DNA from: Rhizobium nepotum 39/7
GTDB taxonomy: Bacteria; Pseudomonadota; Alphaproteobacteria; Rhizobiales; Rhizobiaceae
Assembly: GCF_000949865.1 (NCBI RefSeq)
Contig: NZ_JWJH01000011.1
Location: 1 to 64,000 of the forward strand
Direction of reading: 5' to 3'
Length of the DNA: 64,000 nucleotides
Position 1 is the stretch's first letter. Every line of letters begins with the position of its first letter. Below the pieces are notes generated by a model that had not been told where the DNA came from, searched no databases, and saw only the letters and a list, made by a program, of their open reading frames with translations. This document shows positions 52,453 through 59,025 of this stretch, piece by piece. The translations under genes were made by a program, and so were the position numbers.

Positions 52453-52977
52453 TCACGGAAGCGCGTCGTAGCCTTCGGCAAAGCCGGTCAGCTCGATCGG
52501 AATGCCGACACGATCCTGATCGACGGATTCACGCAGGGCGAAAACAGCGTTCTTGCCGGCGCGCAGAACCTTCAGCAGCTCGTCGTCGATATCGACCTCG
52601 ACATAGCAGCCTTCGGAGAAGCAGCGGGTGAAATAGGCGCGGCCGATATTATTATTGTCGATATAAAGCTCCATGCCGTCCTTCAGGAGCACGCCGAGCG
52701 GCGCCAGGATACGCAGGATGCGCGACTTGCGGTCGGCAGTCTTCAGCACCACCACCGAAAGCCCCACTTCCGGGCGGTCGTCGGCGATCACGTTCTGCAT
52801 CAGGGCGCACTGATCTTCGGACGCGCCGGCCGGCTTGTCGCAGATCACCGACCATGCGCCATGCGTCGACTTCGGCGTTCCGGGCGGCTGCTGTTGCGCC
52901 AGCGCCGATGCGGCGGGAGCGATGATGGCAAGACCGGCGGCAGCAAGAAAAGTGCGCGCGAGCGGGGAAAGACGCAT
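52453..52977 (-). CDS. Invasion-associated locus B (IalB) family protein
   Basis: A 174-residue exported protein with a signal peptide (MRLSPLARTFLAAAGLAIIAPAASALA). The mature part shows HGAWSVICDKPAGASEDQCALMQNV and the closing YFTRCFSEGCYVEVDIDDELLKVLRAGKNAVFALRES, as in the IalB family, first linked to erythrocyte invasion in Bartonella but common in harmless rhizobia. The function here is unknown. It diverges from the ctaC region across 421 bases. Confidence 0.87.
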   Translation of the reverse strand: MRLSPLARTFLAAAGLAIIAPAASALAQQQPPGTPKSTHGAWSVICDKPAGASEDQCALMQNVIADDRPEVGLSVVVLKTADRKSRILRILAPLGVLLKDGMELYIDNNNIGRAYFTRCFSEGCYVEVDIDDELLKVLRAGKNAVFALRESVDQDRVGIPIELTGFAEGYDALP

Positions 52978-53398
52978 GGATACCTCTGGGATTCGAATCA
53001 GTGCGGCTATTTTGACGCCATAATCCGGAAAAAAAAGCCTTGGTACCTCAATTCCAGCCGAGTTGGGCGGAAATAGGACGCATCCACCTGCACGAGCGCG
53101 TGATTTGCCCTCCCGGCAGCCGGTGTCCGGCGGCTAAAGCCGGTTGCGGAACCCGCTGGAAACCGGGTGAAACAAAGGGCCGCGCCGGTTTTTGACTGGT
53201 GGAAAGCGCGTCCGGCACATTCAGCCGGGTGCGGGACGTGGGAAACTCGGTCAAGGACGAACAATGGCGAATTTGCCTGTCGTCCGTGTCCTTACGCATA
53301 TTGCGGCAGAGGACAAACTGTGGTTTGAAGTTGGTAACATAAGCATGGATTCTGCGTTTGTGATTGATCAAGATCAGACGTGTGAGGGAGAGGGTACC
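52978..53398. other. Divergent regulatory gap between ialB and ctaC
   Basis: No gene is supported; a 70-codon in-frame extension upstream of ctaC lacks a proper signal peptide and is rejected as coding. The FNR-like box at 53364-53377 sits 21 bases before the ctaC GTG, and a weak promoter-like TTGCCT-N18-CATATT lies near 53273-53302. Confidence 0.5.
53364..53377 (+). promoter_or_regulatory. FNR/FixK-like box before ctaC
   Basis: TTGAT-CAAG-ATCAG matches the TTGAT-N4-ATCAA anaerobox with one mismatch. It is 21 bases before the ctaC start, a position that suits repression when oxygen is low. The site was seen by eye only. Confidence 0.45.
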
Positions 53399-56028
<2,630 letters not shown>

Positions 56029-56341: not shown

Positions 56342-57295
56342 ATGACCGTTATCGACAATCGCGAGATGCTTGGCGTGGAAAGCTCCGAACTTTCGGAAGC
56401 TGGCGCGCGCGATTATTTCGAATTGCTGAAACCGCGCGTCATGTCGCTCGTCGTCTTCACGGCGTTTGCCGGCCTCGTGCTGGCGCCGGGCCATATCAAC
56501 CCGATCCTCGGTGTCATCGCCATTCTCTGTATCGCCGTTGGCGCGGGTGCGTCCGGCGCGCTCAACATGTGGTACGATGCCGATATCGACGCCGTGATGA
56601 GCCGCACCGCCAAGCGGCCGATCCCATCGGGCCGCGTCGCACCGGGCGAGGCGCTCGCCTTCGGCCTCACGCTCTCGGCCTTTTCGGTGGTCATCCTCGG
56701 CCTTGCGGTCAACTGGTTCTCCGCCGGCCTGCTCGCCTTCACCATCTTCTTTTACGCCGTCGTTTATACGATGTGGCTGAAACGCTCGACGCCGCAGAAC
56801 ATCGTCATCGGCGGTGCCGCCGGCGCTTTCCCGCCCATGCTCGGTTGGGCCTGCGTCACCGGCGGCGTTTCGCTCGACAGCGTCATCCTGTTCCTCATCA
56901 TCTTCTTGTGGACACCAGCGCATTTTTGGGCGCTGGCGCTGTTCAAGATGCGCGATTACGGCTCCGTCGGCATTCCGATGATGCCGAACGTGGCGGGCGA
57001 ACGCTCCACCAAGAACCAGATGATCGTTTATGCCGTTCTGACTGCTGCCGCGGCCGTCGCGCCATATTTCACCGGTCTGGCGAGCATCGGTTACGGCATC
57101 TTCGCCACAGTGCTGAGCGTGATCTTCGTCTACTGTTCGCTCGATGTCCGGCGCATGCCTGATGGTGACGAGAAGATGCTGCCCGCCAAGAAGATGTTCG
57201 CCTATTCGGTGCTTTACCTCTTCGCCATCTTTTCCGGCCTGTTGGCCGATCATTTCGCTCCGGCCCTCAAGGCCGTGATTTCGGGAGTTCTTTAA
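56342..57295 (+). CDS. ctaB: Protoheme IX farnesyltransferase (heme O synthase)
   Basis: A 317-residue UbiA-superfamily enzyme with about nine membrane helices that attaches farnesyl to heme b, giving heme O for the oxidase. The [23 protein letters not shown] motif carries the acidic Mg-diphosphate residues, and [12 protein letters not shown]-like sequence is near the end. ATG 56342 is favoured. The stop TAA at 57293-57295 overlaps the first base of the next small gene. Confidence 0.94.
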
Positions 57296-57426: not shown

Positions 57427-57468
57427 CGGCCTGACGTCGAGTGCATGACCGGAGGAGAGGGGGAGGAC

Positions 57469-58086
57469 ATGGCGAATATTGGAGCAGACAAGGCAACGGC
57501 CGGCACGCAGCGGGTGAGCAATCGCTCCATCCTCGTGCTCTGTGTCGTTTTTTTCTGCGGCATGATCGGTATGGCCTATGCCGCCGTTCCGCTCTACAGC
57601 CTGTTCTGCCGCGTCACCGGCTATAACGGCACGACGCAGCGCGTCGAGCAATATTCCGACGTCATCCTCGACAAGACCATCAACGTCACTTTCGACGCCA
57701 ATACGTCGAACGGTCTCAACTGGGATTTCCGCCCGGTCGACAGGCAGGTCACGCCGAAGATCGGCGAAACGGTGCAGATCAACTTCAAGGCGACGAACCG
57801 CTCACCCGTGGCGACCACGGGCACGGCGGTCTTCAACGTCACGCCCATGGAAGCGGGCGCCTATTTCAACAAGGTGGAGTGTTTCTGCTTCACCGAAACG
57901 ACGCTGCAGCCGGGCGAAACGCTCGAAATGCCGGTGGTGTTCTTCATCGATCCGGATATCGCCACGGCGCGCGAAACGAAAAGCATTCATACTTTGACGC
58001 TGTCCTATACGTTTTATCCGGCCAAAACCGAAAAACCGGTTGCGTCCTTGCCGGTAAAGACTGAATCTGGCGAAAGCAAATTGTGA
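57469..58086 (+). CDS. ctaG: Cytochrome c oxidase assembly protein CtaG (Cox11)
   Basis: A 205-residue copper chaperone that delivers CuB to subunit I. A single N-terminal membrane helix ([26 protein letters not shown]) anchors a periplasmic immunoglobulin-like domain holding the copper motif VECFCF, as in CNxCFCF-type Cox11 proteins. ATG 57469 follows GGGGAGG; an upstream ATG at 57445 adds eight unlikely residues. It is 42 bases after coxF. Confidence 0.94.
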
Positions 58087-58149: not shown

Positions 58150-59025
58150 ATGGCAGATACGCATCAGAAGAACCACGACTACCACATCATAGATCCAAGC
58201 CCCTGGCCGCTTTTGGCCTCGATCGGCGCCTTTATTCTGACCTTCGGCGGCGTCTGCTACATGCGTTACCTGTCGGCCGGCTCCTTCAAGCTGTTCGGTA
58301 TGGAACTGGCCAATCCCTGGCTGTTCTACATCGGTCTCGTCATCGTGCTTTATGTCATGTACGCATGGTGGGCGGACACGATCAAGGAAGCCAATGAGGG
58401 CAGCCATACCCGTGTCGTCGCGCTTCACCTGCGCTACGGCATGATCATGTTCATCGCCTCGGAGGTGATGTTCTTCGTTGCGTGGTTCTGGGCCTATTTC
58501 GATGCCAGCCTGTTTCCGAATGAGGCCATTCAGGCGTCCCGCCTCGAATATACCGGCGGGCAATGGCCGCCGAAGGGCATCGAGGTCATCGATCCCTGGC
58601 ATCTGCCGCTCTACAACACCGTCATCCTGCTGCTTTCGGGCACCTGCGTCACCTGGGCGCACCACGCCCTGCTGCACAATGACCGCAAGGGCCTGATCAG
58701 CGGCCTCGCGCTGACCGTCGCGCTCGGCGTCCTGTTCTCGACCGTGCAGGTCTACGAATACATGCACGCCCCGTTCGACTTCAAGAACTCGATCTATGGC
58801 GCGACCTTCTTCATGGCGACCGGTTTCCACGGTTTCCACGTCTTCGTCGGCACGGTGTTCCTGCTGGTCTGCCTGTTCCGGGCCATTGCCGACGGTTTCA
58901 CGCCAACGCAGCATTTCGGCTTCGAGGCCGCCGCCTGGTACTGGCACTTCGTCGACGTCGTCTGGCTGTTCCTGTTCTTCGCCATCTACATCTGGGGTGG
59001 CTGGGGCGCGCCGGTGCACGGGTAA
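58150..59025 (+). CDS. ctaE: Cytochrome c oxidase subunit III
   Basis: A 291-residue membrane subunit with about seven helices. Motifs include SEVMFFVAWFWAYFDASLFPNE (conserved acidic residue), HGFHVFVGTVFLLVCL and the C-terminal EAAAWYWHFVDVVWLFLFF. It stabilises the catalytic centre and helps proton uptake. ATG 58150 (MADTHQKN) is favoured over the TTG at 58141. Repeats of families B and A follow before the next gene. Confidence 0.96.
   Translation: MADTHQKNHDYHIIDPSPWPLLASIGAFILTFGGVCYMRYLSAGSFKLFGMELANPWLFYIGLVIVLYVMYAWWADTIKEANEGSHTRVVALHLRYGMIMFIASEVMFFVAWFWAYFDASLFPNEAIQASRLEYTGGQWPPKGIEVIDPWHLPLYNTVILLLSGTCVTWAHHALLHNDRKGLISGLALTVALGVLFSTVQVYEYMHAPFDFKNSIYGATFFMATGFHGFHVFVGTVFLLVCLFRAIADGFTPTQHFGFEAAAWYWHFVDVVWLFLFFAIYIWGGWGAPVHG

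Follow-up and report, generated by a model that had tools for sequence, protein, structure and literature searches.

The window analysed here, a stretch of 64,000 nucleotides from Rhizobium nepotum 39/7, contains an oxidase operon in the order ctaC-ctaD-ctaB-ctaG-ctaE (Table 1). The profile matches of ctaC and ctaD, both above their cut-offs, identify them as subunits II and I of an aa3-type oxidase, so that the target named in the sequence-only reading of this DNA was correct. Further in-frame starts of ctaC occur upstream (53192, 53264 and the 53345 region), and these were set aside because the alignments of the relatives start at 53399 with a ribosome site preceding. Between the operon and its divergent neighbour lies an FNR/FixK-type box, TTGATCAAGATCAG, separated by a gap of 21 bases from the GTG start codon. 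The box matches TTGAT-N4-ATCAA at nine of ten positions, the last base being G instead of A, and it contains two TTGA half-sites arranged as TTGA-N6-TCAA with one mismatch (7/8 of the core). The same sequence-only reading had placed a TTGAT-N4-ATCAG one base off the consensus at this site, 21 bases before the operon, and all of this was borne out.

Table 1. Annotated features of the aa3 oxidase operon and its upstream region in the window.
Feature	Position	Strand	Basis or remark
Divergent neighbour, IalB-type gene	52453-52977		PF06776; start about 390 bases from box
Degenerate copy (8/14) at the place of GCAAAAATGCCGCA	53267..53280	+	
Putative -35, TTGCGG	53301..53306	+	17 bases before TTTGAA; TTGCG(G/A) conserved in relatives
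Putative -10, TTTGAA	53324..53329	+	Extended, TGG preceding; inferred; TTTGAA/TTTTAA in relatives
Left arm of leader hairpin, GCGTTTG	53354..53360	+	
Second, weaker overlapping match, TTGTGATTGATCAA	53358..53371	.	7/8 of TTGA-N6-TCAA
FNR/FixK-type box, TTGATCAAGATCAG	53364..53377	.	Motif and conserved position in relatives
Right arm of leader hairpin, CAGACGT	53375..53381	+	Overlaps box; two G-U pairs with left arm
Shine-Dalgarno region of ctaC, GAGGGAGAGGG	53384..53394	+	
ctaC, cytochrome c oxidase subunit II	53399..54295	+	TIGR02866 (CoxB), above cut-off; GTG start
ctaD, cytochrome c oxidase subunit I	54313..56028	+	TIGR02891 (CtaD_CoxA), above cut-off
ctaB, heme o synthase	56345..57295	+	TIGR01473
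ctaG/cox11, oxidase assembly protein	57454..58086	+	PF04442; NF003465
ctaE, oxidase subunit III	58150..59025	+	PF00510

The motif by itself is not uncommon. Three matches with at most one mismatch were found in the window against 1.60 expected, and 24 of 100 shuffles reach three; rarity was therefore dropped as an argument, the count being near chance. Genome-wide, TTGATNNNNATCAR was found at 31 distinct places (36 rows, in which five palindromes are listed twice). A genome control with the reversed pattern, which gave counts of 0 and 1, was left aside as this pattern contains TAG words that coding DNA avoids.

A total of 170 ctaC loci were gathered for comparison: 80 from the nearest named relatives, and, from a draw spread evenly over the family, 30 returned and 60 fetched. 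CtaC was matched in 145 family genomes, of which 90 loci were used, the 60 being taken approximately in rank order, with gaps, and without regard to their content. Of the 170 loci, 169 have a recognisable start codon and ribosome site (one locus, L165, was dropped for lack of them), and these gave 142 distinct regions spanning positions -75 to -10. At least seven of the eight core positions, in a match beginning 31-49 bases ahead of the start codon, were found in 74 of the 142 regions and were absent from the other 68; the full 8/8 core was in place in 50. In base-shuffled regions, with a match allowed anywhere, the corresponding figures are about 1.3% and 0.04%. Retention of the box at one place before ctaC, and not the bare motif, thus exceeds chance.

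The box is unevenly distributed among the sources, being in place in 60 of the 80 nearest named relatives and in 25 of 89 loci of the even family draw. All 25 belong to the 30 best-ranked loci, and the 60 lower-ranked family loci that were fetched in addition have no box in place. Nor is it in place in the R. tropici group, whose half-sites are lost or separated by five bases. Within the genus of the window, 18 of 19 genomes hold at least 7/8 in place, some of them through an overlapping match, and the one other leader has 6/8. In the window, as in its nearest relatives, the right half reads ATCAG in place of ATCAA. The left half reads GTGAT in one subgroup of the genus, and CtaC relatives far outside the genus retain the 8/8 core.

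The box starts 34 bases past the end of the putative -10 element. The same block, as TTTGAA or TTTTAA, precedes the box start by 31-35 bases in 27 Rhizobiaceae-type regions that have the exact 14-bp element described below together with an exact core; the promoter block was unrecognised in 17 of the 142 regions. In another family of the order, here f27, a perfect anaerobox (TTGATCTCGATCAA) follows the ctaC promoter in all four loci (L261-L264). This box lies downstream of the promoter block, 72-74 bases after the 14-bp element, and 200-250 bases before the likely start codon of ctaC, that of L261 being ambiguous. No exact box was found in the other two non-family loci with the 14-mer (L260 and L265). 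As the start codon is far off in f27, the box appears to keep to the downstream side of the promoter, as expected of a repressor site, rather than to the start codon. The location downstream of a likely promoter, as originally proposed, agrees with this arrangement, in which the promoter-like block, although putative, is conserved in the window and its relatives. An activator role was judged unlikely: with the box centred near -41, as in a canonical activator site, transcription would have to start inside ctaC.

The 14-bp element GCAAAAATGCCGCA was found exactly in 85 of the 142 ctaC upstream regions (for example in the region L048:2870-2883), and its distance to the TTGC of the -35-like block is exactly 20 bases in 85 of the 97 regions that have it with at most two mismatches. 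Across 101 family genomes the element was found 63 times, in 56 of them, and 49 of these copies precede ctaC by no more than 450 bases; among the other 14, four look ftsK-like by eye and one is followed at 133 bases by an Rrf2-like gene. In a draw from the whole order, the element with its TTGC spacing was present in 13 of 249 genomes, six of them outside the family, where each copy precedes a ctaC-like frame (by eye). Its other strand contains TGCGGC, which agrees with one half-site of the consensus quoted for RegA in PMC5435760. As a RegR/RegA box it is only a lead, however, as a second half-site is not evident. The literature searched did not contain the 14-mer as a literal string, a 13-base part of it occurring in one unrelated cancer paper.

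A candidate regulator is encoded in the genome. Next to hemN lies a gene for a 241-residue Crp/Fnr protein, which we call FnrN (L202:390-1115, minus strand), with an N-terminal C-X2-C-X7-C cluster and a later cysteine, and its best NCBIfam model is FnrL at 220.7 bits, under the cut-off of 300. Further FNR boxes were found between fnrN and hemN (TTGATTGAAGTCAA), before hemA (TTGATGTGAATCAA; TIGR01821) and upstream of one of two cydA genes, at a distance of about 135 bases (TTGATCAGTGTCAA); the second cydA has no box of at least 8/10 in the stretch examined.

The oxidase that would take over from aa3 is less clear. Neither ccoN nor FixO was matched in the assembly of 79 contigs, where an assembly gap may hide the cbb3 genes, and the two COX1-type genes found are ctaD and one on contig C35. 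The fnrN-hemN pair is present at a contig end (contig C60, L202) though ccoN and FixO are unmatched. A hand-over to cbb3 is therefore not to be assumed for this strain; the partner oxidase may be bd, and the switch one from aa3 to bd. A ccoN match is missing in three of the 19 genomes of the genus, including that of the window, and sequence resembling the box is retained in all three, in two cases as GTGATCATGATCAA.

The box also lies within a potential hairpin of the ctaC leader, whose right arm it overlaps. Sixty-seven leaders were aligned, comprising 63 distinct segments picked for a core of at least 7/8 and four hand-picked rows in which the core is lacking or shifted (L048, L059, L093 and L096). 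The inner pairs T29/A41 and G30/C40 are unchanged in 66 of the 67 sites each and show no compensatory change. The outer four pairs comprise 215 Watson-Crick, 19 G-U, 3 A-C, 15 other and 16 gapped cells, with six MAFFT rows (L039, L040, L042, L113, L117 and L017) that pair in a shifted register scored as unpaired. Pair 20-43 is UA in 35, UG in 13, CG in 11 and another combination in 4 of the 63 rows with letters. Column 20 has changed at least seven times on a quick CtaC tree, and its C is accompanied by G in 11 of 12 rows. Double-changed cells number 18 against 6.6 in shuffles.

Folding was also observed in the absence of the box. In 44 box-less representatives it peaks just past the promoter block, with a mean z of -1.20 at +5 (p 3.6e-7) and -1.07 at +10; in 21 representatives with the box the z is -2.14 at +20 (p 8e-10), a value aided by the symmetry of the box itself. 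Folds of whole leaders are modest (mean z -0.75 against -0.18), and only 37% fall below -1. Hairpins after the ctaC promoter thus occur also in genera without the box, and that of the window is weak. Two loci of one genus (L104 and L107, genus g10), which have no FNR box, carry two unlike 9-bp stems at the same place, TTTTCGCCG/CGGCGAAAA and ATTTCCGCA/TGTGGAAAT. A GAAA loop was seen in the ctaC leader of L108.

These observations raise the question of what is being conserved. One alternative is that the conserved entity is the RNA hairpin, acting as a 5' end stabiliser or a guard of the ribosome site, and that the resemblance to an FNR box is secondary. The variation of the outer arms argues for it, as pair 20-43 is mostly UA, UG or CG, column 20 has changed repeatedly with its C nearly always accompanied by G, and G-U cells outnumber A-C cells. 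Box-less regions fold as well. A leader's own arm also pairs better than the arms of other lineages (53/74 against 0.50, or 0.41 with a different arm). A natural experiment is provided by L017, whose right arm was displaced by an insertion: a stem was re-formed there from GCGTTTGT and ACAAGCGC, while the box stayed intact. Against this, the hairpin of the window folds no better than its shuffles (z 0.02), pairs with a double change number 2 against 2.1 in shuffles, and a sign test on independent pairs (median p 0.5) is without power. The TTGA/TCAA core does not covary but stays invariant, a constraint beyond the needs of a stem alone, and this invariance of the inner pairs would suit recognition by a protein better than pairing. 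Rfam gave no match in the window stretch, apart from one chance hit elsewhere, or in ten relatives. In the literature searched, a hairpin in the ctaC leader is not described. A hairpin that shares the right half can account for part of the conservation of the box; as the whole explanation we regard it as unlikely. In our reading, the core would be held by protein and the outer arms by pairing.

If a protein holds the core, it might be another member of the Crp/Fnr family, of FixK-, NnrR- or FtrB-like type, that answers a signal such as nitric oxide. Paralogues do exist, the HTH_Crp_2 matches above cut-off including C13:175613 and C12:176795, and a perfect box (TTGATTTCGATCAA) lies close before the latter, an FtrB-like gene (L203 near 1640; G000:C12:177639). 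The TTGAT/ATCAA half-sites are, however, of the FNR/FixK pattern, and fnrN sits with hemN as an oxygen regulon would predict, which makes such a binder improbable. The box might also be a decaying relic in this genus, or a chance match without effect, given the near-chance frequency of the motif in the window, the degenerate right half, the likewise degenerate 14-bp element and the lack of a ccoN or FixO match in the genome. Its near-constant presence within the genus and the intact core far outside it speak against decay or accident, and we consider this explanation distinctly unlikely.

We therefore favour the reading that the box serves FnrN as an operator past the ctaC promoter, through which aa3 oxidase is lowered at low oxygen, and give it a probability of about 0.6. 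The operator would be bound by an oxygen-sensing dimer of the FNR type within the Crp/Fnr family, most probably FnrN. As oxygen falls, [4Fe-4S]-FnrN would bind the box just past the promoter and hinder initiation or early elongation at ctaC, leading to less aa3 oxidase; the promoter position, the binding, the repression and its direction are all what we infer from the arrangement. The proposal of an oxygen-dependent shut-off of aa3 made in the sequence-only reading is thereby upheld in part. In its favour are an FNR-type box past a promoter-like block that is kept in related genera, the presence of an fnrN gene and of other FNR boxes, and the repression by FnrL in Dinoroseobacter (PMC5398030); telling against it are that the box is degenerate on the right in the window and in relatives, that part of the family lacks it, and that ccoN and FixO were not matched in the genome.

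A wider scheme would have the same roughly thirty bases serve both as a DNA operator, at which FnrN blocks ctaC at low oxygen, and as a leader hairpin acting post-transcriptionally. The hairpin would be the older, family-wide feature, and in the Rhizobium-Agrobacterium group its loop and right arm would have come to accommodate the box. The promoter would be switched on by some regulator acting through the 14-bp element, which is nearly exclusive to ctaC and would have been lost in the genus of the window. This combination is tentative, and we hold it to be possible but doubtful.

The choice of oxidase as oxygen falls shapes the life of a plant-associated bacterium in soil, roots and nodules. 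If aa3 is governed by a conserved repressor site, as proposed, one mutation suffices to test the switch. Two additional layers of control are suggested by the hairpin in the leader and by the 14-bp element specific to ctaC; neither is described in the literature searched. A cta mutant of R. etli is impaired at high oxygen (PMC4274787), and the main text of the S. meliloti transcription start site paper does not mention cta. The cta operon is listed as a new predicted FnrN/FixK target in Rhizobiales by Tsoy et al. 2016 (PMC4999443), so that this assignment is not new; less expected in our annotation were the hairpin and the 14-mer. The window shares the TTGAT-N4-ATCAA palindrome and the target gene class with the anaeroboxes described there; our analysis adds the position past the promoter and the place within a hairpin, both accounts being sequence predictions.

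Redox control of the same operon is also known from the RegA/PrrA/ActR systems, and RegA strongly activates aa3 in Brucella suis (PMC5435760). The likeness extends to the one RegA-like half-site in GCAAAAATGCCGCA, and the difference lies in the second half-site, which is not evident, and in the degeneracy of the element in the window. Close parallels are found in the FnrL systems of Dinoroseobacter shibae, in which FnrL represses aa3 anaerobically (PMC5398030), and Rhodobacter sphaeroides, for which the FnrL/CrpK peak table has the aa3 coxI row with a minus sign (PMC4263372). These have in common with the arrangement proposed here an FNR-type regulator, aa3 genes as the target and repression at low oxygen, whereas they belong to another order, Rhodobacterales, and cbb3 is present there.
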